Positions 5,053 through 46,661 of a DNA stretch of 46,661 bases are shown here, one piece after another. Positions within the stretch are counted from its first letter, which is position 1. The number at the start of each line of letters is the position of its first letter. The position numbers and the translations under genes were made by a program. Origin of the DNA: a virus; the IMG/VR virus record IMGVR_UViG_3300024344_000030, positions 1-46,661 of that record; one strand, 5' to 3'. The notes under the pieces were generated by a model that made no database searches, was not told the origin of the DNA, and saw only the letters and a list, made by a program, of their open reading frames with translations.

Positions 5053-5436
5053 ATGAAATCAGATAAGTTAAAATTACATATAAGACAAATAGTAAGAGAA
5101 GAGGTTGCAATGGCAATCAATGAGGTTATTACTGAAATGAAACAGCCGACTGTTGTGGCAAATACACGGGGACAAGAAAACGAACGGAAACCAACCGCGG
5201 TTGGCAAAAAGCAGTTTTCAAATAATCCAGTATTGAATGATATATTAAATGAAACGGCTAATTCTGAGACAGATTTGGAAAGCTTTAGTAGTGATATTAT
5301 GCACGATGACGGTAATATTATTTATGAGAATGCAGATGTTGCACAATCTAATGTTCCTGATTTTATGACACGAGATTATAGTTCTGTATTGGAACAATCT
5401 TATAAAAAAACTAAATTAAAGGCTGGGACAGCATAA
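5053..5436 (+). CDS. Hypothetical protein with an amphipathic basic N-terminal helix
   Basis: This 127-aa protein begins with an amphipathic helix (KLKLHIRQIVREEVAMAI), then turns into a polar, Asn/Ser/Asp-rich and probably disordered stretch, ending with a basic segment YKKTKLKAGTA. The start is supported by AGGAG at 5039-5043. The stop overlaps the following start by one base (TAATG). It sits between the spike and gp25, so a small baseplate or hub role is likely, but no motif proves it. The opening helix ending in IVREEV loosely resembles N-terminal peptides of phage proteins that are processed or targeted to the prohead; that is speculative. Confidence 0.6.
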   Translation: MKSDKLKLHIRQIVREEVAMAINEVITEMKQPTVVANTRGQENERKPTAVGKKQFSNNPVLNDILNETANSETDLESFSSDIMHDDGNIIYENADVAQSNVPDFMTRDYSSVLEQSYKKTKLKAGTA

Positions 5437-11763: not shown

Positions 11764-14700
11764 GTGGCTATAAATCAAAAATATATACCTACTTTTAATA
11801 CGAGGTCGCAGTGTAAAGACGACCCAAAAGATGGTGCCGGCGATTATTACCCGGAGTTAATGGTATCGGAAATACATTATTCTATCCCATCGTCTGTTGG
11901 TACTTATTCTGATTATCAGTTTGTAGAAATATATAGACCTTTCGGTTCACCGTTTTATGAAGGCTGGGATGGTAACATCTCTGGATTTAAAATGACTTTT
12001 GAAGGTACTGATGCAATTGATGGTCTTGGGTGTGGGATTAATGTCTCAGGTAAAGAATGGAATAGATTCGAGTTTCCAGACGGTACATATATACAAGAGG
12101 GTTATAGGATTGTAATTGCTAATAATGCCACAACTTATGAGAGCGAACCAGACTTAACACTTGGTGTAAATTTATTTGAATGGCAAGACGGAGACAGTTA
12201 TAATTTAAATAGATATTCTCCAATGACTATACGGATACGCAATAATTGTTGGCAAAATCCAGTATGCATACCTGCCCCAGAATATCAAAATTCAGTGGGT
12301 GTTTCTGAAACCTGTGCCGCACAATCAGTCGAATATTTTTGTGATACTGATGATAGTGCTACCGAAGAAACATGTGTAGATGGCAATTGGACGACTTATT
12401 GTGATTTTCATACTCAATGTGTATATGATGTTCCACCTGAATGCACAAATATGGGTCGCGATGACAACAATTGTGGAAATGCAGATGGATGTACAGTTAA
12501 TGTTGTACGATACCATACGGGTTGTGATGATGGTATTGAAGTTGATTCGTATGGTTGGCCAACAATATCAAGTTGTCCATATGGAAGTCATGGTGGAAAC
12601 AGTATTGAACTCAAACCTGATTATTTATTATGGAATACAGATATTAATATAGGTAGTAATTGGCAAGTAAGTACTAGCGAACATGGGACTCCGGATTCTG
12701 GTATTATATTTGGGTGCACAGACCCCCAAGCATGTAATTTTGATGCATTAGCAACCGATGACGATGGTGGGTGTGACTATAGCACTACAATACAATGTTG
12801 CTTTGATGAAGATTTAGATTTGAGTTGGACCGAAGAACAATCTTTAGAAGGTTGTTATCCGAGTTGCAGTACACTTGGGGAACATTGGTATAATTGTGAA
12901 GATTTAGACGGTAGTGAAATACTTGGGTGCACAGACGAGTGTGCAATAAACTATAACCCTGAAGCAACACAACATATTGATAATTGTGAATATCAGGTTT
13001 TTAGTGCCGGTGAAATTATCATTGATGAAATTCATTATTATCCAGTTGATGGTAACGATGCTGAATTTTTTGAAATATATAATAATTCAACTCAAGATTT
13101 AAATTTATCATGTGTATCCATAACCACTCAGGGTGCTTCTTCTGAATTTGTGAGGTTGGAATCAATCCCAGTTGGTACTCAAATTTCATCTGGTGGCCGT
13201 GTGGTTTTTGCTAATAATAGCTCAGTATATGATGGTGTCAATGGGTTATCTGTTAATCAAAATTTATTTGAAATTACGGGTAACTTAAATAACACTACTC
13301 CAATGACAATCCGGCTAAAAACTGCCGTAGGTGATATAATAAATGAGGTTCGTTATCAAGTAGCTGGTAACGAGGGCAGTGAAAATAATACTTGTTCAGG
13401 AATAGGAACAGAGTGGCCATCTAATGTGTATAATGACGATACATCAATAGTATTAGTTAACCATAGTTTGGATAATAATTGTGGTACAAATTGGAGGAGG
13501 GGTGGTGGTGGCCCAACTCCTGGATTATCAAATGAACCTAAACTTAATACTTCCCCTGCTGATTTATTTATATCAGAAATTATGTATAATCCACCAGGTG
13601 GTGGGGAACGAGAATATTTTGAATTATATAATAATCATCCAAGTATAACCTTTGATATATCTGGGTTTGAATGGGATGGCGTTAACCCTGTGAGTAGTGA
13701 TGATAATTATATAATTCCAAATGGAGTTCATATAGCACCAAATGAAGTTATTTTATTTACGCGTAAACATCCAATTGATGAATTTGATATTAGTTGGAGC
13801 GGTCAAGATAATCCATGTTTAGTGGATACACAACAATGTTACCCATACGGTGGGACACCTAATCGTACTATATGTTGTAATGGTAGATTAATTCAATTAC
13901 GAGCAACTTATGGTAATGTAGTGGCTAGGTGGAATGGTGGTACGAGTAACGCCCCATTTTTAAATGTCGATGAGACATATCCAGAAACTGATAATCTTGG
14001 TAGCTCAGTTGAATATAAAATATTCTGTGATGAAGATTTTAATTTAAATCCTGATTGTACAGAAGATTGCAAAAATGGTAGTTCATATACTAACGGTGGT
14101 AACACGGCGTGTTGGCAAGCAAGTATTGATGGTGGGAACCCTGGGTATGTTGCACAAAGCATAGTGGGTTGTATGGACCCATCATCATGCAATTACTGTG
14201 GTGACTGTACTACACACAGCCAACCCATGTGCGAATATCCAGATGTGAATTACGATTGTGATGGTAATTGTGTAATCGGAGAAGATTGTAATGGTGTATG
14301 TGGTGGTACTGCTGAATTAGATTGTGCAGGTGTATGTGACGGAAATAGTGTATATGATGCTTGTGGTGTATGTGATGGTCCGGGTGCTATATATGAATGT
14401 GGATGTTCTGAAATACCTGAAGGTACATGTGATTGTGCTGGAAATGTATTAGATGAATGTAATATATGCGGTGGAGATAATTTATCATGCTCAGGGTGTA
14501 CGGATGCGGACGCACTAAATTATGACCAGGATGCAACAATAGATGATGGTACATGTCAATATATTGATTTACCTGATTGTGAATGCTTGACGGATAGCGA
14601 TTGTGAAAATATTTGTGCAGCTGAAGGTGGGTGTGGGGAATGTGTATCAAGTGGGTGTAATGCATCATCGATGACTGGTTTATGTGAGTGTTTTACATGT

Positions 14701-17700
14701 CTTATTGAAGGTTGTACAGATATAGAAGCATGTAATTACGATTCAGAGGCTCAAGAAAATGATGGTAGCTGTGTATATGCAACAGATTTTTTCAATTGCG
14801 ATGGTGATTGTATAGTAGAAATCGATTGTTTAGGTGAATGTGGTGGAGACGCAGAAGAATTAGAATGTGGGTGCAACACGCCAATGGCAGACGGGGCATG
14901 CAATTGTGATGGGTATATAGACGATTGTGCTGGAGTCTGTGGTGGTGATGCATCAATCGATAATAACGGAGAATGTTGTAATGCAAATTTAATTGATGAT
15001 TGTGGTATTTGTAATGGAGATAGTTCATCGTGTGCACCATCTGGTGATATTTTAATTGAATCCACTTTAACTTTTGGTTTGTCACAACATCAATTCACAT
15101 TTACACCACTCGGTGACAGTCCTACTGGTGCATGGTCTGCACCATCTGATGGTGGATATATAGTTGAATATCTTTTAGAAATTGATAGAAAGACAAGTGA
15201 TGACCAAACTGGACCGAGTGGGTTAATGACTGTCAATAGGACATTCGATTCGGAGACAGAAATATTAGATTTTGAGCAGAATGGGTATTTTAAAGAATTT
15301 ACTATACAATCTGACCCTTTACCGTACACATATTTTGTAAAAATAACTGCAACTGATAATAATGGTATTATTGGGTCACATCAAAAAATATTTATAATAG
15401 AAAATATAATTGAAACTGCACAGTCCGTTAGCTTATCATATTTACCATATCAAGGTATTTGGTTGTATGGCAATTATGACCCCATTGCTATTCCATTATA
15501 TCAAACGCGAGCTTCAATGACAAATTATGATGTCGATAGACGACCGCAGCTGGGAACTTTTTATTATATCGATGATAATTTCAATGTACCGTGGGTGCAA
15601 AAGATAAATGAAATATCATTATCTTATGATAATCCCGAAGATTTTTATTCTGGTACTGAATTTGACTTAGACGATATTGGTATGTTGCAATCACAATCTG
15701 GTAAAATTATTACACCATGGAAATCATTAATTCAATCTGATTTATCTCCTGATATTGATGCAAGAACTGTCCGGAGTTTAAATAAAAATGTTAATCAAAC
15801 TGTATATAATTATTTTGATGAACTTATACAGCCAGATGAATATGATATAAATTCAGCACCGGGTGAAGTACAACTATATGCATATTTTAGGCGTTCCAGT
15901 GAACTTTCAGAAAATTTAAACGAGGTTTCTTGTGGTGGTGTTGGGGATTCAGGTCACATTTTAGTTTCCGACGCACATTGCACAAAAGCATCCGATTGTA
16001 ACACACCCGATGGGAGTTCATTTGGAATCGAGGGTCAAAATGTGACTCCAAGTGATTGTTGTATATTCCATTATGGTGGGTATCCAGGTGATTATACTAT
16101 TGGCGAGCCATGTGGGTCGTTTGGGGTGTATTATGGATATTATTGTAATTATGTACCAACCGATTTAACGGGAGAAACACCTGATGTTAATGTTTATGAT
16201 ATTTTTAATGATAGACCACATGTTAATTTTGATTATATAAATAGAGATGGAATTGTATGTAAAATGGATTCAGATTGGACTACATCATATTTTACACAGG
16301 CATATATTGGAGTAATAGATTGGGGCGATTCAGTTACTGCTATACCAGAATATGCAGACAAACCACTCGAATTAAAATCTGATACTATAATAAAACATAA
16401 GTATGAAAAACCTGGGGTATATGAAATTACGGGTTTGATGTTTATTGTTGGTGGGATATTAATCGAAGGGTCGCGGCATAAACAAGGTGTTTTAGAAAGC
16501 TTTAAATTCACTACACGCATAAATTTATATGAAAACAATTTATATACCTCACCTTTCATTGATGTTAATGCATTTGAACCTATTATTGGTGGTATATCTA
16601 AAAATAGTATTTATTATAAGACAATAAAACGACAATTGGGATTAATGCCGGGCTTAGACCAACCAATTGATTTACATTTTGCGTATGAATTTGATAGGTT
16701 AGAAACGGGTGGCGCATTAGTAAATATTGAAAATAGAGTATCAGGTTCGAGTGCACCATCATTACCATTTTTAGATGATTATATGGGGCCTACTTATGAT
16801 TTATCTGATGCTTCAGGTGCACCAACTGAGAGTGCAACATCTAATAATTTAATACATAATGGTAGATTTAATGACCAAGGTATTTTAGGAGAATTCCCTG
16901 GAGAATTGGATATTGGACAAATTAGATATTTTAATTCTGGTAAATATAATATATGGGATATGCTTGGGTTTATAAATACACCATTTGAACAATCGTATGG
17001 AATCAATGATGCATCAATAACGCAAGCTGTATTATTCACAGCTGCACATAATCAGCGAAGCTATAGACCATCAATAGATTCAACTCATTCGAGTGATTTA
17101 TATACAGGTTCAATTGGTAGAAAGATGCATGATTTTTTCGGGTGTCCTGTTATATATGCTAAATATAGAACTGATGACCCTAATTTTTATCATTATGTTC
17201 CAGACCCAACTGATACTCCTGCATTTGAGCCTATAAAGGGGAAGATGATGCCAATGAAGCGAGCAGTATTAGACTATCTGGAAACTCACCCTAATATTAA
17301 ATTAGTAATTGATTTACATGGTGCTGCAAATTGGAGATACTTTGCCGTTGATTTAGGGTTAACTGGCCCAAAAAATACACCTGGACCATTTTTAACAGAT
17401 GAGGGTGAATGGGAAGAAGTGGAGTCTCCTGAATTACAATATCCGCAATATAATGTATTTGATGATGTAAGTAAATATGCACCATCAATTAAAACTACAT
17501 TTGGAACACAAGAATTATTGCGTTACATATATGATGCATTAATTGATAATGGTGTTGGTGCTGGGTGTCCAACTTCACAGGATGAAATAGATACATCCAC
17601 TTGTATTAATCATGATAACGATGGATTTGGACCAACATTCAATCATTCATTCACAGCCGGAAACCAACCTACTGGCACTGCATGGGTAACACGCGATGCA

Positions 17701-18867
17701 CCGTCAGAAATAGTGACTAACCCAGATAAATTTGTAGATGCAGTGCAGATGGAATTCAGTAGAGAGTATAGACGATTTGGAAATACCGAAGATAATGACC
17801 CGGCTGCACTGAAAGCAATAGTTGATATAGTAAACTTTACTAATGAGCATTATGGATATATTGATGCAATCAAACCTAAACCAACGGATATTGAATTTGA
17901 AAATTGGGGACCATGGATAAAAAATGATTGGGACACGCAATTTGACCCGACAAAGGATACAGTCCTTAGTGCAGACACAGTTCCAATGCTAAATCACCCA
18001 GGGAATCCGGGTCATTCGAGATATTGGAAAAACATTATACCAAAAGATACTAACATTTTTACAGGACGGGAGGGGATTGTAGCATATAATATTGGACAAA
18101 CGATTATCGGTTCGGGTAGTTATACATTGATGTTTAGTGATTTACCAGAAACTGGTGTGACGGTTAATGATATTTTTTCAGCATTACTTGAATATACACA
18201 TATGGTAGATTTTATTTTATATACTCCAACGGGTGAATATTTTACTGAATTGAGTGAATACCCATCTGTTAATAATGATGATGGGTGGCGAATAACTATA
18301 GCATCTAATGTTAGTATTAGATTTGATTTTAGTTATTATTTTAATATTTATACAGAGGATGAACTTGGTTCTATACAAGAGCTGTATTTTGATGATTATT
18401 CATTATTAACTGGTGATTTATCGTCAAATCAAAACTGGACACCAAAAATAATAACAGAGAATGTTGGGGAGCAACAATCCACAGAATATATAAATTATTA
18501 TCAAAATTTTTATTATCCAGTATTACCTAAAATAGATTTTTTAGGTAGGTTTTCTGAAAATCGTTTGCAAACTTTTAATTCAAGCCCATTATTCCCGTGG
18601 GGTTATCCTGGCATCGATTGGAATGAATACGACCCATATGCTAGTATAACAAATGAAAAAATTGTAAATAATAATTTAAATATTGATATGACTTTTTCTG
18701 AAATTGATGATAATAACCAATTAATTGATATTGGTGGTCGGAATATATTTGGGCAGTTAATTACTGATTATAAAGTTATGTTTGACCATGAAACTGGTGA
18801 ACCATATGCAAATGATTTTAAAATATACCCTAAATTAGGTGAAGATGAATATGAAAAACCATATTAA
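11764..18867 (+). CDS. Giant multi-domain virion adhesin: lamin-tail domains, Cys-rich repeats, PKD-like and amidohydrolase-like domains
   Basis: This 2367-aa protein starts at GTG after a strong GGGGGG site (11755-11760). Three lamin-tail-like domains lie near residues 28-165 (LMVSEIHY), 412-530 (IIIDEIHYYP) and 597-740 (LFISEIMYNPP then EYFELYNN). Cys-rich repeats of the GCTDxxACNY type lie at 317, 388, 802 (degenerate), 911 and 983. Runs of DCNGVCGG and DCAGVC units occur near 830-930 and 1010-1080. A PKD-like domain at about 1515-1565 shows WGDS and HKYEKPGVY. Residues about 1755-2005 resemble N-formylglutamate amidohydrolases: H1762 in AAHNQRSY, IDLHG with H1852, and QMEFSREYR with E1997. 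The C-terminal 350 residues are unrecognised. It is probably a distal tail adhesin or fibre with an enzymatic module. No signal peptide is visible. Confidence 0.7.
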   Translation: MAINQKYIPTFNTRSQCKDDPKDGAGDYYPELMVSEIHYSIPSSVGTYSDYQFVEIYRPFGSPFYEGWDGNISGFKMTFEGTDAIDGLGCGINVSGKEWNRFEFPDGTYIQEGYRIVIANNATTYESEPDLTLGVNLFEWQDGDSYNLNRYSPMTIRIRNNCWQNPVCIPAPEYQNSVGVSETCAAQSVEYFCDTDDSATEETCVDGNWTTYCDFHTQCVYDVPPECTNMGRDDNNCGNADGCTVNVVRYHTGCDDGIEVDSYGWPTISSCPYGSHGGNSIELKPDYLLWNTDINIGSNWQVSTSEHGTPDSGIIFGCTDPQACNFDALATDDDGGCDYSTTIQCCFDEDLDLSWTEEQSLEGCYPSCSTLGEHWYNCEDLDGSEILGCTDECAINYNPEATQHIDNCEYQVFSAGEIIIDEIHYYPVDGNDAEFFEIYNNSTQDLNLSCVSITTQGASSEFVRLESIPVGTQISSGGRVVFANNSSVYDGVNGLSVNQNLFEITGNLNNTTPMTIRLKTAVGDIINEVRYQVAGNEGSENNTCSGIGTEWPSNVYNDDTSIVLVNHSLDNNCGTNWRRGGGGPTPGLSNEPKLNTSPADLFISEIMYNPPGGGEREYFELYNNHPSITFDISGFEWDGVNPVSSDDNYIIPNGVHIAPNEVILFTRKHPIDEFDISWSGQDNPCLVDTQQCYPYGGTPNRTICCNGRLIQLRATYGNVVARWNGGTSNAPFLNVDETYPETDNLGSSVEYKIFCDEDFNLNPDCTEDCKNGSSYTNGGNTACWQASIDGGNPGYVAQSIVGCMDPSSCNYCGDCTTHSQPMCEYPDVNYDCDGNCVIGEDCNGVCGGTAELDCAGVCDGNSVYDACGVCDGPGAIYECGCSEIPEGTCDCAGNVLDECNICGGDNLSCSGCTDADALNYDQDATIDDGTCQYIDLPDCECLTDSDCENICAAEGGCGECVSSGCNASSMTGLCECFTCLIEGCTDIEACNYDSEAQENDGSCVYATDFFNCDGDCIVEIDCLGECGGDAEELECGCNTPMADGACNCDGYIDDCAGVCGGDASIDNNGECCNANLIDDCGICNGDSSSCAPSGDILIESTLTFGLSQHQFTFTPLGDSPTGAWSAPSDGGYIVEYLLEIDRKTSDDQTGPSGLMTVNRTFDSETEILDFEQNGYFKEFTIQSDPLPYTYFVKITATDNNGIIGSHQKIFIIENIIETAQSVSLSYLPYQGIWLYGNYDPIAIPLYQTRASMTNYDVDRRPQLGTFYYIDDNFNVPWVQKINEISLSYDNPEDFYSGTEFDLDDIGMLQSQSGKIITPWKSLIQSDLSPDIDARTVRSLNKNVNQTVYNYFDELIQPDEYDINSAPGEVQLYAYFRRSSELSENLNEVSCGGVGDSGHILVSDAHCTKASDCNTPDGSSFGIEGQNVTPSDCCIFHYGGYPGDYTIGEPCGSFGVYYGYYCNYVPTDLTGETPDVNVYDIFNDRPHVNFDYINRDGIVCKMDSDWTTSYFTQAYIGVIDWGDSVTAIPEYADKPLELKSDTIIKHKYEKPGVYEITGLMFIVGGILIEGSRHKQGVLESFKFTTRINLYENNLYTSPFIDVNAFEPIIGGISKNSIYYKTIKRQLGLMPGLDQPIDLHFAYEFDRLETGGALVNIENRVSGSSAPSLPFLDDYMGPTYDLSDASGAPTESATSNNLIHNGRFNDQGILGEFPGELDIGQIRYFNSGKYNIWDMLGFINTPFEQSYGINDASITQAVLFTAAHNQRSYRPSIDSTHSSDLYTGSIGRKMHDFFGCPVIYAKYRTDDPNFYHYVPDPTDTPAFEPIKGKMMPMKRAVLDYLETHPNIKLVIDLHGAANWRYFAVDLGLTGPKNTPGPFLTDEGEWEEVESPELQYPQYNVFDDVSKYAPSIKTTFGTQELLRYIYDALIDNGVGAGCPTSQDEIDTSTCINHDNDGFGPTFNHSFTAGNQPTGTAWVTRDAPSEIVTNPDKFVDAVQMEFSREYRRFGNTEDNDPAALKAIVDIVNFTNEHYGYIDAIKPKPTDIEFENWGPWIKNDWDTQFDPTKDTVLSADTVPMLNHPGNPGHSRYWKNIIPKDTNIFTGREGIVAYNIGQTIIGSGSYTLMFSDLPETGVTVNDIFSALLEYTHMVDFILYTPTGEYFTELSEYPSVNNDDGWRITIASNVSIRFDFSYYFNIYTEDELGSIQELYFDDYSLLTGDLSSNQNWTPKIITENVGEQQSTEYINYYQNFYYPVLPKIDFLGRFSENRLQTFNSSPLFPWGYPGIDWNEYDPYASITNEKIVNNNLNIDMTFSEIDDNNQLIDIGGRNIFGQLITDYKVMFDHETGEPYANDFKIYPKLGEDEYEKPY

Positions 18868-28899: not shown

Positions 28900-29544
28900 A
28901 TGGGATATTTAAATAACGATACAGTGGTAGTGGATGCAATTATGACTAAGCATGGTAGGTGGAAGTTATCACGGCCAGGCGGTCAATTGGGGATAGAGAA
29001 GTTCGCTGTTGCAGATGATTTTATAGATTATAGATTATTCAACCCACAGCATAGTAGTGGTTCTGCATACTTCGGTGAAGAAATAGAAAAATTACCAATG
29101 GTTGAAGCAATACCAACGGATGAAAACTGTATGAAATATAAATTGACCACTGTTGGACAAGATATTCAATTTTGGCCAATACTTGAAAATATAGAAACAA
29201 ATTATACAATACGACATAGAAATACCCCAACAACTTTAACACCACATACTCGACATTTAACGAGTCCTGAAACTTATACATTTAAAGTACCTAATGTGGG
29301 TTTATTTGATTTTTCAGGAACGGGAAATACATTAGATAGTGGAATCGATTATGGTTCAACTCATATTAGTTTCCCAGCAGAGCGTGGCATACCTAGAGCT
29401 GTAAAGTGGTCTGGAAGAAAAACATTTGAGTTTTACCCATCAACGCTTGATTCAGATGTTTATGCAAGCATAGAAGTAGAGGGTGAAACGAGCGGAAAAA
29501 CATTTACTGTCGAAATTAAAATGACAGGACCAAATTATAAATAA
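28900..29544 (+). CDS. Conserved virion structural protein
   Basis: This 214-aa protein follows AGGAGA at 28887-28892. A GTG-started frame extends 16 codons upstream, but the ribosome site selects this ATG. The opening MGYLNNDTVVVDAIMTKHGR, then FAVADDFIDYRLFN, is a pattern I recall from structural proteins of marine T4-like phages, usually before fibre genes. The rest is beta-rich (TYTFKVPNVGLFDFSGTG) and ends with VEIKMTGPNYK. No enzymatic motif or membrane segment is present. It is followed 22 bases later by another structural gene with its own strong ribosome site. Role: probable minor virion component; the exact location in the particle is unknown. Confidence 0.7.
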   Translation: MGYLNNDTVVVDAIMTKHGRWKLSRPGGQLGIEKFAVADDFIDYRLFNPQHSSGSAYFGEEIEKLPMVEAIPTDENCMKYKLTTVGQDIQFWPILENIETNYTIRHRNTPTTLTPHTRHLTSPETYTFKVPNVGLFDFSGTGNTLDSGIDYGSTHISFPAERGIPRAVKWSGRKTFEFYPSTLDSDVYASIEVEGETSGKTFTVEIKMTGPNYK

Positions 29545-29566
29545 TCTCAACTAAGGAGAAGTAATT

Positions 29567-30784
29567 ATGGCTAACGGTAGAAGAAGAAATACAGCAGCAC
29601 TAAACGGGCCAGCTGCTGGTGTAAATGAAATACAAAAGGGTACTAGGACGACCTTTAATCAATTTTTAAAAATAGGTTCAAGAACTTCCGTAACAAAGGA
29701 TGTTACAGCTGGATATTTTACAGGGGGGGTTGCAAATTTAGCAGGTACTAACTTCACAACAAAATCATTATCTGGTAGAGCAAATATGGCAAGTGGGACT
29801 TCATATGCTAAAGGTCAGAAAAATTACTATTATAATTTGCAATATAGTAGTGAGGACCAATTTAGTGTTGCATATGGTCATACTGGTGGTTCTGGTTCTC
29901 GTGGTTCAAATGGTAGCTTAAATTTAACTGGTGGATATAAATTAAAAGGTGAAACACAAGCTGTTTACAGACAATTTGCTTCACTTTGCTTAGATGAGGA
30001 TGATGCATTAGATGGTTTTAAGTTTGTATCTGGTTCAACAACAGTGCAACCTGATATTTATGTATTTATATCAGAGAGAGCTAGAATGAAGGATAAGTTA
30101 GATAAAGCTAATTGGACAATACATTTATCTGGTACAAACACGGATAGCTCATCAGCAAATTTAAGCTTAACGGATGACAGTAAATATGTTGCAGCTAAAA
30201 CCTCACCATTAGGACCTAGGTATAATATAGTATCTGGTTCAGGTGGTGCTGTTTCTGCATCTTCAGGTACTGAATCTGATAGATGGAAATATGATAGATA
30301 TGGATTTTTCTTCCCTGAGGCTGGTATAGCAGTACTATCTGCAAATAAATTATCTGCAAGTATCCCGGGTACTCCTGGGTATATAACAGGTTCCAGAAAT
30401 GGGTTAGCAGTATCGACTGACGGAACAGGTCTTGCACCAGACACAGCATTGCATCCGGATGCAGACAATGCATTAAAGTTTGTTAAAGCAATTCAGTTAG
30501 GTACAGATACATCATTTAGAAATGTTGAAACTCAAATCATTACAAGTCATTTTTGTCACATTCCGGCAGGTGAATTTAATGGTAGTGTTAATCCAACATT
30601 TACATCAGGTTCAAATGGTGATTATAGATTCCCAACTGAAATGCTAGGTGACCCGCAGACATTTATTACTACAATTGGATTATACGATAATTCGGAAAAT
30701 TTAGTTGCAATTGGTAGATTAAGTTCCCCGATTAAGAAAAGCTTTGAGGATGAGGCAATAATTAAAGTTAATATTACTTATTAA
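29567..30784 (+). CDS. Virion structural protein (C-terminal domain shared with next gene)
   Basis: This 405-aa protein, preceded by AAGGAGAAG, is Gly-, Ser- and Ala-rich. Its basic N-terminus (MANGRRRNTAALNGP) is followed by beta-rich sequence. The C-terminal 60 residues contain GDPQTFITTIGLYDNSENLV then AIGRLSSPIKKSF. This arrangement is repeated in the next gene (SPYITTLGLYDKYNNLIVV, then GRLSQPIKKR) and is familiar to me from structural proteins of marine phages. Codon use appears more ordered here than in neighbours, and the strong ribosome site suggests high expression. It may be an abundant virion component. It has no signal peptide and no catalytic motif. Confidence 0.7.
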   Translation: MANGRRRNTAALNGPAAGVNEIQKGTRTTFNQFLKIGSRTSVTKDVTAGYFTGGVANLAGTNFTTKSLSGRANMASGTSYAKGQKNYYYNLQYSSEDQFSVAYGHTGGSGSRGSNGSLNLTGGYKLKGETQAVYRQFASLCLDEDDALDGFKFVSGSTTVQPDIYVFISERARMKDKLDKANWTIHLSGTNTDSSSANLSLTDDSKYVAAKTSPLGPRYNIVSGSGGAVSASSGTESDRWKYDRYGFFFPEAGIAVLSANKLSASIPGTPGYITGSRNGLAVSTDGTGLAPDTALHPDADNALKFVKAIQLGTDTSFRNVETQIITSHFCHIPAGEFNGSVNPTFTSGSNGDYRFPTEMLGDPQTFITTIGLYDNSENLVAIGRLSSPIKKSFEDEAIIKVNITY

Positions 30785-35651: not shown

Positions 35652-36572
35652 ATGTATAACAACCATTTATTAGAATTGTTGGAGCAAGTTTTAGGTAGTG
35701 GGTATAGGTTAAAAAATGATGAAATATCATTCCATTGTAAATTTTGCAACCATCATAAGAAAAAACTACAAGTAAATTTAGAAACACAAAAGTGGCATTG
35801 CTGGGTGTGTAATAGCGGTGGTCAAAAAATCGTACAACTCTTAAAGAAGTTAAATGTTTCACATAATATTATAAAAAGTGTCTTGGAATTGCTTGATGAA
35901 TATGTAAGTTATGATAAACAAAAAGAAAAAGAAACCCATCATGGGCTATCATTACCGAAATGTTATAAACCATTATATAAACAATCAGATAGCATAATAA
36001 GAAAACACGCTTTAAATTATTTAAGACATAGAGGTATAACTCAGCGAGAGATTATACGATACCAAATAGGATATTGTGTGGATGGTGAATATAAAAACAG
36101 GGTTATAATTCCAAGTTATGATTTAAATGGTGATATTAATTATTTTGTAGCACGAGATATATTTCCAGATTCTAACATGAAGTATAAAAATCCACCAGTT
36201 TCAAGAAATATCATACCATTTGAGTTATTTGTAAGTTGGGAACACCCAATAGTATTATGCGAAGGTGTGTTTGATGCAATTGCAATAAAAAGAAATGCAA
36301 TCCCATTGTTAGGTAAATTCCCATCAAAAAAATTGATAATCAAAATAATTGAAAGTGGTGTTACAGATATATACATAGCATTAGATGAAGATGCAAAAGA
36401 AGATGCAAGAAAATTATCAGAATTTATGATGGGATATGGTAAAAATGTGTATTTGATGGATATGGATACAAAAGACCCAAGTGATTTGGGGTTTAGACAA
36501 TTCTGGAAACAGATTGAAAATACAAAACAAACTGGTTTTTCAGATTTAATTAGGAGTAGATTAAATGAGTAG
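35652..36572 (+). CDS. 61: DNA primase, T4 gp61-like (zinc finger plus TOPRIM)
   Basis: This 306-aa protein has an N-terminal zinc-binding region: C29 and C32 in FHCKFCNHH, and C50 and C53 in WHCWVCNSGG. The TOPRIM domain follows with E204 in VLCEGVFDA and the D245/D247 pair in IALDEDAKED, then TKDPSDLG, the usual third acidic motif. That is the architecture of primases that lay down RNA primers for lagging-strand synthesis with a replicative helicase; the length is near T4 gp61 (342 aa). No ribosome site precedes this ATG and the predicted transcript starts at or just before it, so it may be leaderless. The stop overlaps the SET-gene start by eight bases. Confidence 0.9.
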   Translation: MYNNHLLELLEQVLGSGYRLKNDEISFHCKFCNHHKKKLQVNLETQKWHCWVCNSGGQKIVQLLKKLNVSHNIIKSVLELLDEYVSYDKQKEKETHHGLSLPKCYKPLYKQSDSIIRKHALNYLRHRGITQREIIRYQIGYCVDGEYKNRVIIPSYDLNGDINYFVARDIFPDSNMKYKNPPVSRNIIPFELFVSWEHPIVLCEGVFDAIAIKRNAIPLLGKFPSKKLIIKIIESGVTDIYIALDEDAKEDARKLSEFMMGYGKNVYLMDMDTKDPSDLGFRQFWKQIENTKQTGFSDLIRSRLNE

Positions 36573-37029
36573 GATATTTTTAAGTAACCTAATAGAAGTA
36601 AGGAAGTCACCTATTCATAGGTATGGTGTTTTTGCTAAAGAAAATATACAAAAAGATACTATTATAGAAGAATCACCGTATGTTGAATTTGATGTAAATA
36701 TCTTTGACTTATTTGCAAAACCAAATAGACTTGAAGATTATTATTTTGCACACCCAAAATCTGATAAACTTGGTATATTTCCACTTGGGTATAGTGTAGT
36801 ATATAATCATACTGATGATAATAATATTACATTAGATATAATATTAGAAAGGGAAACTGTAATAATTAAAACAAGTGACGATATTAAAAAAGACGATGAG
36901 CTACTTATGCATTATGGTTCAACATATTTTCCAGATAGAAAATTTGAAATTTTTTTGAATAAAATTCAAGATGATTATTTTAATAATCGGCTTTCTTTAG
37001 ATGATATTAGGAGAAAATTATATGATTAA
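36565..37029 (+). CDS. SET-domain protein (probable lysine methyltransferase)
   Basis: This 154-aa protein shows the main SET-domain motifs in order: SPIHRYGVFAKENIQKDTII (residues 15-34) corresponds to the N-terminal strands, VVYNHTDDNN (78-87) to the NHS-type cofactor and active-site loop, and KKDDELLMHYG (108-118) to the closing motif ending in the conserved tyrosine. SET enzymes transfer methyl groups from S-adenosylmethionine to lysine side chains. The length is that of a bare SET domain without added substrate domains. AGGAG at 36552-36556 sets the start. Eight-base overlaps at both ends with the primase and recombination genes imply coupled translation. The substrate is unknown; a replication protein, ribosomal protein or host factor are possibilities. 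Confidence 0.82.
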   Translation: MSRIFLSNLIEVRKSPIHRYGVFAKENIQKDTIIEESPYVEFDVNIFDLFAKPNRLEDYYFAHPKSDKLGIFPLGYSVVYNHTDDNNITLDIILERETVIIKTSDDIKKDDELLMHYGSTYFPDRKFEIFLNKIQDDYFNNRLSLDDIRRKLYD

Positions 37030-40000
37030 GACGATAGCACACTTAGGTGATATCCACATACGCAAATTACATAGATTTATTGAGTATAGAGAAGTTTTTA
37101 ATAGATTGTATAAAAAATTAAATGAATTGGAACCAGATTTAATCTATGTTGGTGGCGATATAGTTCATGGAAAACTTGATACATCACCAGAAGAAACTCG
37201 AATGGTTGCTAACTTCTTTTTACAATTATCAAACATTTCACCCACTATCATCATTCCGGGGAATCACGATTGTAATTTAAATAATAAATCTCGCGAAGAT
37301 ACATTATCGCCAATCATTGATTTAGTGAAAAAAATTAACCCAAATATTCATTATTTTAAACAAAGTGGTGTTTATACGCTTGATAATATTGACTTTGGTG
37401 TATTATCAATTTTTGATGTAGATAGCGATGGGAATCAGAGAACAGATACATTACCAAACCCAAAAAATATGAATAACACTAAAATAGGGTTATTTCATGG
37501 TGCAGTTGGAACATTCCACTATGATAATGGATTTGAGGTTACTGATAAAAATGTTTCGGTGGGTACATTTGATGGGTATGATATGGTATTACTTGGTGAT
37601 ATTCACAAAAGGCAGTTTTTAAATAAAGAAAAAACTATGGGTTATTGTGGGTCATTAATCCAACAGGGATTTGCCGAGGATCCTGCACATGGTTTTTTAT
37701 TGTGGGATGTCGAAACTAAAACTGCAGAATTTCATGCAGTAGAAAATGATTATGGGTTTAAAGTTATAATTGTCGAAGATGGTAAAATTCAAAATAAGAT
37801 GAAATTTATGCCCCCAAAGGGTAAAATTAAAATTAAGTATTGGACTACAACCTTAGAGCAGATAAAAGATATACAGATTGATTTAAGAAAACAATATCCT
37901 AAAATAAGGGAAATTATAGCAGAAAAACAGGATGTACTTTCTAAAATTGATGGTACTTCGAGTAAAATCAATGTTGGTGATGTTAGAGATGTAGAGTACC
38001 AAAATGAATTAATAGTAGATTACTTAGCAAATAACATTGAAGGTGTAGATGCAGATACAATCAAACGAATATGTGAGTTAAATAAATTAACAAATAATTC
38101 ACCTGAAATATATGATGGTGGGGTAACTCGGAATGTAGATTGGAAACTTAAATCATTTGAATTTGATAATATGTTTTCATATGGTGAAGGTTCAAAAATA
38201 GATTTCACAAAACTTGATGGCGTTGTTGGTGTGGTTGCACCAAACCATTCGGGTAAATCTGCAATGATGGATGCGATTGCATACACTATATTTGATATAT
38301 GTAGTAGAACTAATAAAGCAATTGATGTGATGAATAAACGAAAATCAACATTTTCAGCTAAACTAAATCTTGAAATTAATGGTGAGGATTATTGGATTGA
38401 ACGGGTTGGTACTCAAAAAGTAAGACACCACCGGGATGGTACATATACAGAATCATGTCCAGTTGCTGTTAAATTCTATATGATAGATGGTGATGATAAA
38501 ATTGATTTGAGTGGTGCAGCCAGATTTAATTCCCAATACGGGAGTGGAACAAATGAAGAAATACAGAAGGTGTTAGGGACTTTTGATGATTTTATATTGA
38601 CATCACTATCATTACAAAATAACGGTACAGATTTTATTGATAAAAAACAGGCAGAACGAAAACAAATACTTTCACAATTTATGGATATTGACATATTTGA
38701 ACAATTAGAAACAATAGCGAGAAGTGATTCAAATGAAGAGCGTGCATTATTAAAATCGTTCAAGAAAAAAGATAGTTATAAAGATTTATCGACGATAGAG
38801 CAATATATACTTGATTATGAAGATGTTGAAATTGATTTAAATAAAAAACTTCAAGTTTTAGATGATGATATTGATAAATTAGAGGATACAAAATTTAAAC
38901 TTGGTATTAAATTACATAAAGTAGATTCAACAATTTTACATATTGATACACTTAATAATGAAAAGCATGCAAAGGAACTAAAGAAGAAAAACATAGAAAA
39001 ATCATTAAAAGATGATAAGGATTATAAAGAGAATTTAAGACCTTTATTTCATGAATATAATGAAAAGATAGATAAATTTGATGAAACTGTTATAAAATCA
39101 AATTATGAGTTATTTAATAAATTAACTCATAAATTAAAAGATATTAATTCAGGCATTCAGATTATAGAAACAACTGCTAGGTCATTAAATAAACATGCGG
39201 GAGATTTGGATAAATATAAATATGACCCGAATTGTGAGTTTTGTATTAATAATGGTGAGGAACAGATTAATGAAAAAATATCAATTCAACGCCAATTAGA
39301 TGAGTTAGATGTGAAATACAAAATAATAATTTCTAAGCAAGAATCCACTATGGCTGCACTTGATGCAGTAAAGGATGCAGAAGTTGAATTGCATGAATTT
39401 GATAGGTTTTCCGATGAATTAAATCAAATACGACATGATGCCGTTAAGATTGCAGGTAAAATTACAGCACAAGAAAGTGAAATAAAACAACTTGATGCAG
39501 AAATGTTAAATATTGATACTAAAATTACACAATATTATAACAATGAGCAGAAAATTAAAGATAATGAAATTACAAATAAACATATACAACAATGTATTTC
39601 AGATATTCTAAATTTGAATGTAAAAAAGAAATCATTTACTCTACAATATAACGAAAATATGAGTAAATTAAACATGTACAGAAGTGAAAAGCATACCATC
39701 GAGCGTGATATTAAAAAACTTGTAGAAACCGAACAGATGATACTTGATTATGATTTATATTTGATGGCATTATCTAAAGACGGTGTACCATATGAGTTAA
39801 TTTCAGAAACAATTCCGGCAATAGAAAGTGAAGTTAATCGGGTATTGGAAAATATGATGGCTGGGTTTACTATTAAAATGACAATGGATGGTAAAAATAT
39901 TGAAACTATGATATGTTATAATGACAGCTGTTGGAATCTTGAATTAGCGTCAGGTATGGAAAAGTTTGTTTCATCACTTGCAATCCGTATTGGGTTGATT

Positions 40001-45130: not shown

Positions 45131-45520
45131 TTGGATGAACAGAAACTCATAGAAGATATTGGAAAAACATTAATCGGTGATTATGGTTGGATGTTCATTA
45201 TTGCATTTGTTGGAATTATGTTCAAAGAATTTGTTAATAATACATTTCAGGGAATAGCTACAATGTTAGGTGGCGATATAAACAATGATGATATTGTTTA
45301 TATATCAGGAAGACAAGCAAGAGTTGTTAGAGTTGGAATGAGAAAAACTATATTTTATATGACTGATAGAGGAACAAAAATGATTGTTCCGAATGATAGA
45401 TTAAAATATTTAGTTATCGAAAAAACACTACCAAAGAATGGTAGTAGTTTTGCCAAAGGACCCGATGCTAATTTAAAAAAACAGATATTTGACGGTAAAA
45501 AATATGAAGAAAAAACATGA
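45131..45520 (+). CDS. Minimal MscS-like membrane protein
   Basis: This 129-aa protein starts at TTG, seven bases after GGAGAA (45120-45125). Residues 17-32 form one membrane helix (YGWMFIIAFVGIMFKEF). The next segment (FVNNTFQGIATMLGGD) resembles the pore-lining helix of MscS channels, and residues 48-97 match the MscS beta domain: GDINNDDIVYISGRQARVV, then RKTIFYMTDRGTKMIVPN, where the VPN turn is characteristic. Cellular MscS has three membrane helices and an extra C-terminal domain; this protein keeps only the core. MscS proteins are heptameric tension-gated channels of the inner membrane. The gene ends in a four-base overlap with the kinase gene. Function in infection (osmotic protection, lysis timing or DNA entry) is inference. 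Confidence 0.65.
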   Translation: MDEQKLIEDIGKTLIGDYGWMFIIAFVGIMFKEFVNNTFQGIATMLGGDINNDDIVYISGRQARVVRVGMRKTIFYMTDRGTKMIVPNDRLKYLVIEKTLPKNGSSFAKGPDANLKKQIFDGKKYEEKT

Positions 45521-45539
45521 TTAAACTAAAAGACTTAAT
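45517..45539 (+). repeat. Start-codon repeat, copy 1
   Basis: These 23 bases, beginning ATGATTAAACT and ending GACTTAAT, match 46290-46312 with one mismatch. Each copy contains both the TGA stop of the gene before and the ATG of the gene after. Confidence 0.85.
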
Positions 45540-46293
45540 AAAATTGAACATCAATGAAGGTGTTGATGACAAAGGTATTCTGAAAGCTGTATTTCTGGCA
45601 GGTGGGCCAGGTAGTGGTAAATCATTTGTCGTATCAAAACTATTCGGCATTCCAGAGAAAATTAATATATCATATACAGGAATGAAAACTGTAAATTCTG
45701 ATTCTGAATTTGAATTTTTATTAAAGAAATTCGGTTTTGAAACTGTTGGAACTGGTAATCTTGATATTGATATGTGGCCAGATGATGTATTTCAACAAGT
45801 AACTGGTGGATCAGAAGATGACCCAAGTGTAAGAATGTTTGCTAAAGAATTAACAAAACAAAGAATGAAACAATATACCGAAGGCCGTCTTGGTATGATT
45901 ATAGATGGAACTGGTCATAATTATGGTAAAATAGTCAAAGAAAAAGAAAAATTAGAAAAACTTGGATATGATACATATATGGTTTTTGTTAATACATCAT
46001 TAGAAGTAGCACACGAACGGAATAAAAAGAGAAAACGAAAATTACCAGAAGATATATTAGAAAAATCTTGGAATGATGTACAAAACAATATGGGTAAATT
46101 TCAAAATTTATTCGGGCAGTCAAACTTTGTATTGGTGGATAATTCAAAACATTTATCTGAGAAAGCTGCAACAAAGAAATTTAACTCACTTGTAACTAAA
46201 TACATTTCAAAGTTTGTTAAAAAAGCTACTAAAAATAATAGAGGGTTGAAGTGGATTAAAAAACAAAGAATTTTAAAGAAAAATAAAAAATGA
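45517..46293 (+). CDS. Zeta-toxin-like P-loop kinase with a possible capsid-targeting N-terminus
   Basis: This 258-aa protein has a Walker A motif GGPGSGKS (29-36), a following TVNSDSEFEFLL segment as in zeta-toxin-type kinases, IIDGTGHN (128-135), and a basic lid-like stretch ERNKKRKRKLPEDILE (167-182). These place it among small P-loop kinases that phosphorylate nucleotides, sugars or other small molecules. The C-terminal 45 residues are strongly basic. The first 15 residues (MIKLKDLIKLNINEG) precede the kinase fold and closely resemble the start of the next gene; they fit the pattern of T4 capsid-targeting peptides cut after I/L-x-E. The start overlaps the previous stop (ATGA). The target of phosphorylation is unknown. 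Confidence 0.75.
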   Translation: MIKLKDLIKLNINEGVDDKGILKAVFLAGGPGSGKSFVVSKLFGIPEKINISYTGMKTVNSDSEFEFLLKKFGFETVGTGNLDIDMWPDDVFQQVTGGSEDDPSVRMFAKELTKQRMKQYTEGRLGMIIDGTGHNYGKIVKEKEKLEKLGYDTYMVFVNTSLEVAHERNKKRKRKLPEDILEKSWNDVQNNMGKFQNLFGQSNFVLVDNSKHLSEKAATKKFNSLVTKYISKFVKKATKNNRGLKWIKKQRILKKNKK

Positions 46294-46312
46294 TTAAACT
46301 TAAAGACTTAAT
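46290..46312 (+). repeat. Start-codon repeat, copy 2
   Basis: Second copy of the 23-base start/stop junction sequence (one mismatch to 45517-45539), 773 bases downstream. It encodes the shared peptide MIKLKDLI. Confidence 0.85.
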
Positions 46313-46661
46313 TACAGAATTGGCTTGGGTGGATAAAACATTTAAACAAGTACATCTATTAAATATTCCAATATCTATTCCAATTATGAAAAAGGTAATT
46401 GGTGATGTTACTGTCAGTGCATTCCATATGACTGAATTAGACTATGTGGTGAATGGTAATGTAAAAAAATCAATAGGAACAAAGAAGTCACTATCCACAT
46501 TTACAGCTATTACACAACATTCTGATTTGGCTCGGGGTAAAGGAATACAAACGGGTGGTGGTATATTATTTCATGTTGAAGGTAAGTTGTTAATATCAGC
46601 AAATCAGGATATTGGTTCTGGTGTAGATGAAAGTGGAAGAAGATGGTTAAATGTTCACTTG
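46290..46661 (+). CDS. Hypothetical protein with shared targeting-like N-terminus (3' truncated)
   Basis: The frame opens at an ATG overlapping the kinase stop by four bases and runs off the window after 124 codons. It begins MIKLKDLITELAWVDKTF, nearly the same first eight residues as the kinase, with LITE as a possible prohead-protease site. The remainder is a soluble domain with FHMTELDYVV, KSIGTKKSLSTFTAITQ, GIQTGGGILFHVEGKLLISA and DESGRRWLN. I associate similar segments with uncharacterised proteins of marine phages, from memory, but know no function. The context suggests another accessory or packaged protein. Its end and full domain content cannot be judged here. Confidence 0.65.
   Translation, partial: MIKLKDLITELAWVDKTFKQVHLLNIPISIPIMKKVIGDVTVSAFHMTELDYVVNGNVKKSIGTKKSLSTFTAITQHSDLARGKGIQTGGGILFHVEGKLLISANQDIGSGVDESGRRWLNVHL

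Follow-up and report, generated by a model that had tools for sequence, protein, structure and literature searches.

Two adjacent accessory genes of an uncultured far-T4 phage share a predicted capsid-targeting leader

The window analysed here is the entire virus record IMGVR_UViG_3300024344_000030 (46,661 bases; a genome fragment), which ends in two overlapping genes on the + strand. The first (45517..46293, ATG start) codes for a 258-aa P-loop kinase of the Zeta_toxin/AAA_33 group (MIKLKDLIKLNINEGVDDKG..., Walker A GGPGSGKS), a predicted packaged cargo. Its last bases overlap the ATG of the second gene (ATGA, 46290-46293), and its own start overlaps the stop of the preceding gene in like manner (45517-45520). 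The second gene (46290..46661, ATG start, MIKLKDLITELAWVDK...) has no stop before the window end, so that 124 of its 292 aa are seen here; the full length is found at L001:1480-2358 in a near-identical contig (L001, IMGVR_UViG_3300009703_000101; 96-98% identical to the window in the two genes). Both proteins begin with MIKLKDLI, and their leaders end in NINE↓G and LITE↓L, respectively (arrow: predicted cut). The kinase leader, MIKLKDLIKLNINE (45517..45558, + strand), would be cut after E14, and that of the second protein, MIKLKDLITE (46290..46319, + strand), after E10. An initial annotation had proposed that these neighbours share a capsid-targeting-like N-terminus with cut sites fitting the rule of T4 gp21; both N-termini are as it described them, the common MIKLKDLI was confirmed in the sequence, and both leaders end in a gp21-type [L/I]xE site. 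The span it gave, 45517-46345, includes both starts, and of the second gene it covers no more than the beginning. Judged by sequence, the shared MIKLKDLI start is more than coincidence.

In the T4 leader MKTYQEFIAE, residues 4 and 7 target the protein, cutting depends on residues 8 and 10, and the ten residues suffice, with gp21 cleaving after L/I-X-E (PMC9026906). MIKLKDLITE fits this register fully (hydrophobic residues at 4 and 7, L/I at 8, E at 10), while the kinase retains L4, L7 and I8 with the LxE-type site displaced to residues 12-14. The T4 internal proteins IPII and IPIII (MKTYQEFIAE↓A) and IPI resemble the window proteins in having a ten-residue N-terminal leader of this kind, and IPI (MKTFKEFTSTTTPVSTITE↓A) keeps F4 and F7 with a displaced cut (TITE↓A), as in the window kinase (residue 14). 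The annotation had ascribed the MKTYQEFIAEA leader to T4 internal proteins and to Alt; this holds for IPII and IPIII, but Alt starts MELITELFDED. When the register was written as a strict rule, Phi-x-x-Phi-[LI]-x-E, the second gene was the sole gene of the window to pass. Among the other window proteins there is a weak candidate, a 127-aa protein starting MKSDKLKLHIRQIVREEVAMAINE↓V (5053..5436, + strand), which by eye resembles one of the leader families described below (family B) and fails the strict rule; no other clear leader was seen in the window besides it and the pair. Elsewhere in the window, the tail genes have among them one (11764-18867) for a 2367-aa protein with abundant Cys/Asp/Gly repeats of the DCAGVCGG type.

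The kinase matched the Pfam profiles PF06414 (42.2 bits; cut-off 22.3) and PF13671 (35.7 bits; cut-off 27), and in the alignment with its homologues GGPGSGKS, D62 and the lid residues R168, R172 and R174 are invariant, by which we assign it to the Zeta_toxin/AAA_33 P-loop group. The homologues have unlike leaders, each ending in [L/I/V]xE ahead of the domain (window NINE↓G, G008 ILSE↓G, G002 SVEE↓G, HTVC008M ILKE↓G, Melnitz ELQE↓G, G003 FISE↓G, G045 SLFE↓G, G044 LILE↓G). We considered the recurrent E-G as proof of a conserved cut; this was weakened by the kinase of G013, in which a family-A leader comes first and ISE↓GVNDP is retained about 85 residues from the start, so that the E-G may partly belong to the domain. 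In G003 (36023-38470; L128) the same kinase domain opens an 815-aa protein, a possible fusion. The second protein had no Pfam or PHROG match, and a fold search with its AlphaFold model (pLDDT 66) gave a best PDB match of E 1.1, with none below 0.001. An ADP-ribosyltransferase, like the packaged T4 Alt, was prompted by its FHMT... and rejected, as neither sequence nor fold matched. A 34% identical relative of this protein (L104:9893, G013) has the same leader in a phage that also has the kinase, suggesting that to some extent the two cargo genes move as a pair.

The near-identical contig L001 extends beyond the window end. There the kinase and the second gene are followed by MIKLKDILTEIKIK... 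(start MIKLKDILTE) and then by a run of small genes starting MKLTKTKLKQIIREELLNE, MKLTKSKLKQIIREEMQLLNE and MKLTKTRLKQIIREELLNE, with the pattern MKLTK(T/S)(R/K)LKQIIREE...LNE; one more gene with a leader of this type precedes the kinase. The window (45517) and L001 (707) are 98% identical in nucleotides from precisely the kinase ATG onward, and the genes upstream differ (L001 has a family-B leader protein there, the window a 129-aa protein), a pattern that an exchange of cargo at the leader would leave.

Searches defined three leader families: A (MIKLKDLLxE), B (MKLTKxxLKxIIREE..LNE) and C (MKLLLENWRKYLNE). Family B, for which IMG/VR was searched with a core pattern lacking the start codon, lay directly after a start codon in 42 of 42 distinct copies (40 ATG, 1 GTG, 1 TTG), on different proteins; among the matches listed, 89 of 93 distinct family-C copies were at a protein start. 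The mature parts are unrelated (family A, 21 proteins in 19 families; family B, 92 in 81; family C, 91 in 69 among the matches listed), amounting to about 170 unrelated mature families, and the cargo enzymes include P-loop kinases, NUDIX and HAD-type proteins and cytidylyltransferases. Homologous kinases carry either A or C leaders, one homologue (31% over 205 aa) having the family-C leader MKLLLENWRKYLTE. In many family-C contigs, NUDIX-like proteins have varied short leaders ending W-x-x-F-[LI]-x-E↓GELKTVGIV (L235:11721, L160, L211, L175, L196, L220, L172, L184, L173, L217). The number of leader genes on a single contig reaches about 20, with 14-17 on 37 kb. Family B had no match in cellular genome contigs.

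Shared N-termini of this kind could also be a feature of the DNA, either a seam of gene exchange or a start region that aids translation, with the peptide itself having no role. The kinase and the second gene do share 22 of their first 23 bases, and identity between the window and L001 does begin at the kinase ATG. Family B, in contrast, is conserved at the amino-acid level: same-genome copies agree best at second codon positions (0.91), less at first (0.83) and least at third (0.73), and Leu, Thr and Ile are each encoded by many codons, indicating that selection acts on the peptide. The floating LxE site and the register common to unlike families are likewise features of protein, and we consider the DNA-level explanation hardly probable at all. 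Late promoters (TATAAATA) gave no signal upstream of leader genes (family B, 0/92; family A, 1/21; elsewhere, 12/620).

The three families differ in sequence and agree in register: family A has L4, L7, L/I8 and E10; family B has L8, I11, I12 and E14, plus a second, floating LxE (mostly LNE); and family C has W8, F/Y11, L12 and E14, so that all three show Phi-x-x-Phi-[L/I]-x-E. A loose core, [KR][LI][KRS][DEKSQNT][LI][LI] beginning at residues 2-4, was found in 36 of 1,812 proteins, and in 33 of these [LIVM]xE followed directly. The strict core with E at residues 9-16 was N-terminal in 75 of 394 genes from 11 related contigs, windows from the interior of these proteins giving an expectation of 5.7. 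Longer contigs had counts (expected) of 13/241 (1.7), 20/221 (2.2), 24/213 (2.4), 10/221 (2.7) and 6/201 (3.2), and in three random non-T4 contigs they were 3/195 (2.2), 2/121 (0.5) and 7/280 (2.8). An S77 protease is by itself not accompanied by many leaders, which speaks against the capsid-targeting reading: HTVC008M gave 3 matches (2.0 expected) and G045 gave 4 (3.3 expected). In T4, the rule returned 11 matches against 4.7 expected, among them IPII, IPIII, gp24 (MAKINELLRE), gp2 (MAIFQIINE) and 61.1 (MKTFKEFIKE); IPI and Alt were missed. A contig of 134,713 bp retrieved with a random 14-mer (L424-L430), which starts just past the tail-tube region and is without head genes, had the strict core in 24 of 213 genes, its leaders being mostly MKIT(R/K)RQLRR(L/I)IKEEL...LLE.

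The predicted cut site could be examined best in family B, since E is built into the search patterns of families A and C and is no independent test there. [LI]xE occurred at residues 15-26 in 72 of 92 family-B proteins, as compared to 5.5% of downstream windows (highest 7.7%), 19.8% of non-leader proteins and a mean of 34.8/92 (highest 53) when residues 13-27 were shuffled. The residue after the site (P1') was A or G in 43%, against a background of 14% (p=6e-12). The conserved REE and LxE are 3 to 8 residues apart, a variable spacing in keeping with an independent cleavage motif. The maturation region of the major capsid protein Gp23 holds [LI]xE in all nine far-T4 contigs (LISE↓N, LIKE↓A, LINE↓N, LLDE↓V, LLRE↓S or A, IVSE↓A), in HTVC008M (FLGE↓I) and in Melnitz (FLSE↓A), the T4 cut being FLTE↓A, suggesting that sites of this type are probably acceptable to the proteases of these phages.

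Published virion proteomes of cyanophages bear on the register. For S-CREM2, whose virion proteome comprises 52 proteins (PMC10665884), a T4-register rule derived from T4 mutant data picked five proteins: gp6, a SAM hydrolase (MKDFDSFLEE); gp13 (MKDLHSFLTE); gp14, an APH/ChoK kinase (MKRFDAFLTE); gp154, a cytidylyltransferase (MKNFSSFLTE); and gp175. Four of the five were detected in virions, compared to 48 of 214 others (p=0.012; non-structural proteins, p=0.0016). In S-SCSM1 the strict rule had a single match, an NMNAT (MKSFLQFLKE↓A) labelled as a virion protein. Since the matches are few (six across the two phages), we take these data as support for the T4-register rule, not as proof. A looser N-terminal LxE rule (R1, fixed first) reached p=0.04 in S-CREM2, predicted nothing in S-SCSM1 (2/10) and was dropped. 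The virion enzymes with T4-register leaders are thus gp6, gp13, gp14 and gp154 of S-CREM2 (OR473000) and gp91 of S-SCSM1 (MK867354). Like the leader phages they include kinase and nucleotidyltransferase cargo behind a T4-register leader (MKxFxxFLxE), here found by mass spectrometry; unlike them they come from a different phage lineage, and the S-CREM2 kinase is of the APH/ChoK type rather than the Zeta_toxin group. The S-CREM2 and S-SCSM1 papers, which we searched for a leader, report none, and the authors of the cyanophage proteomes themselves left open whether the enzymes are packaged.

A genome lacking a prohead protease had been named as evidence against the capsid-targeting proposal. The 46.7-kb window has no S77 prohead protease, because the fragment stops before the head genes; G008, whose proteins show it to be co-linear with the window for 12 genes (64% identity in the kinase), encodes one. 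Past its kinase, G008 has a cytidylyltransferase gene, terminase, portal, S77 (28999-29607, 13 kb beyond the kinase), eight family-B genes, scaffold (39323) and Gp23 (40350), with the terminase, portal and scaffold functions assigned by resemblance to immuto and the T4 order. S77 was found in 14 and Gp23 in 12 of 24 family-B contigs. Among the matches listed, 16 large family-C contigs had S77 in 8/8 of those of at least 139 kb and in 0/8 of the shorter ones, and among contigs of at least 134 kb fetched with a random 14-mer it was present in 1/4. Leader genes are often situated within the head gene block, and in G010 those of families A and B are interspersed among the head genes. By Gp23, the closest isolates are Microcystis phage Mel-JY01, Flavobacterium phages immuto and Rhodothermus phage RM378.

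The leaders might instead address another place (a membrane, a replication body or a common partner) or serve another phage protease. Amphipathic helices can bind membranes, and three leader-rich fragments, G017, G026 and G044, are without head genes. These fragments are simply incomplete, however: protease, Gp23 and portal are jointly absent, or the contig starts after the tail-tube region. G044 (24 leaders, no S77) was considered as a counter-example and set aside on these grounds, as it has no Gp23 or portal match and starts just after the tail-tube region, and so is a fragment. Given also the S77 in every listed family-C contig of at least 139 kb, the leader genes inside the head block and the T4-register proteins in S-CREM2 virions, we regard another address as very unlikely.

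We consider it highly probable that the shared N-termini are capsid-targeting leaders cut by S77 and that the proteins behind them are packaged and injected, a joint reading that rests on comparison of sequences. The capsid-targeting part of the initial annotation is thus upheld in having a detachable N-terminal module, the T4 register, a gp21-type site and S77 and Gp23 in the leader phages; packaging and injection of the kinase and the second protein are what we infer from the analysis. In the mechanism that we envisage, the amphipathic leader, with hydrophobic residues two helical turns apart followed by L/I-x-E, would probably bind the prohead core, and the protein attached to it would be enclosed during construction of the shell. 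The S77 protease would then cleave the leader after E, and the mature protein would stay among the packaged DNA and go into the host with it, to act early in infection. The leader would serve as a portable address, each of many unrelated small proteins and enzymes bearing one of several families.

Leaders could also be packaging tags on proteins that, rather than being injected as effectors, act inside the head, in the scaffold or core or in DNA condensation. Such N-termini occur too on T4 core proteins and on gp24 (MAKINELLRE↓S), gp24 being a closer match to MIKLKDLLTE that nearly has the family-A pattern M-x-K-L/I-x-D/E-L-L-x-E; several contigs have, as a conserved part of the head block, a leader protein starting MxxLKDLLxEVFxE...; and IPIII influences head assembly (PMC9026906). 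gp24 is a shell protein, whereas the window leader proteins are accessory genes, and most cargo, being variable, unrelated between phages and inclusive of a kinase, NUDIX proteins and a cytidylyltransferase, is unlike core parts. In T4, the leader proteins Alt, Ip1, Ip2 and Ip3 are injected (PMC9026906; PMC12373910). A role confined to the head is therefore improbable in our estimate, and packaging followed by injection is the reading that we retain. It agrees with the T4 internal proteins in the unrelated mature parts behind a common leader and, in relatives of the window, in S77 and Gp23; it departs from them in that the leader sequences of A, B and C differ and that contigs have many leader genes where T4 has few. 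P1 DarB and, as propeptides, the head proteins of SPN3US and phiKZ also have an N-terminal signal into the head, which in the giant phages is removed behind a short motif whose last residue is E, but the signals are longer (DarB, 30 residues sufficient; SPN3US, mostly >100) and belong to other sequences and capsid lineages (PMC9024508, PMC5694885).

More broadly, uncultured far-T4 marine phages may have a large, fast-changing injected set, making up about 5-10% of the gene content of leader-rich genomes and sent to the head by leader families with nothing in common but the T4 register, with new cargo joined to a ready-made leader and exchange breaking at the leader start codon; we hold the case for this wider picture to be evenly balanced. 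Targeting leaders of the T4 type were already known, and families A, B and C appear to be new, as do their scale and the phages that carry them, as far as our sequence comparison and a limited search of the open-licence literature went, the latter returning no paper on these families. To learn which proteins a phage injects, one normally has to culture it and analyse its virions by proteomics. Should the leaders prove to be packaging tags, what uncultured phages inject could be read from sequence, small orphan genes would gain a likely place of action, and whether the kinases and NMNATs of cyanophage virions are packaged or contaminants would become testable. The leaders would also provide ready tags to load proteins into other T4-like heads.
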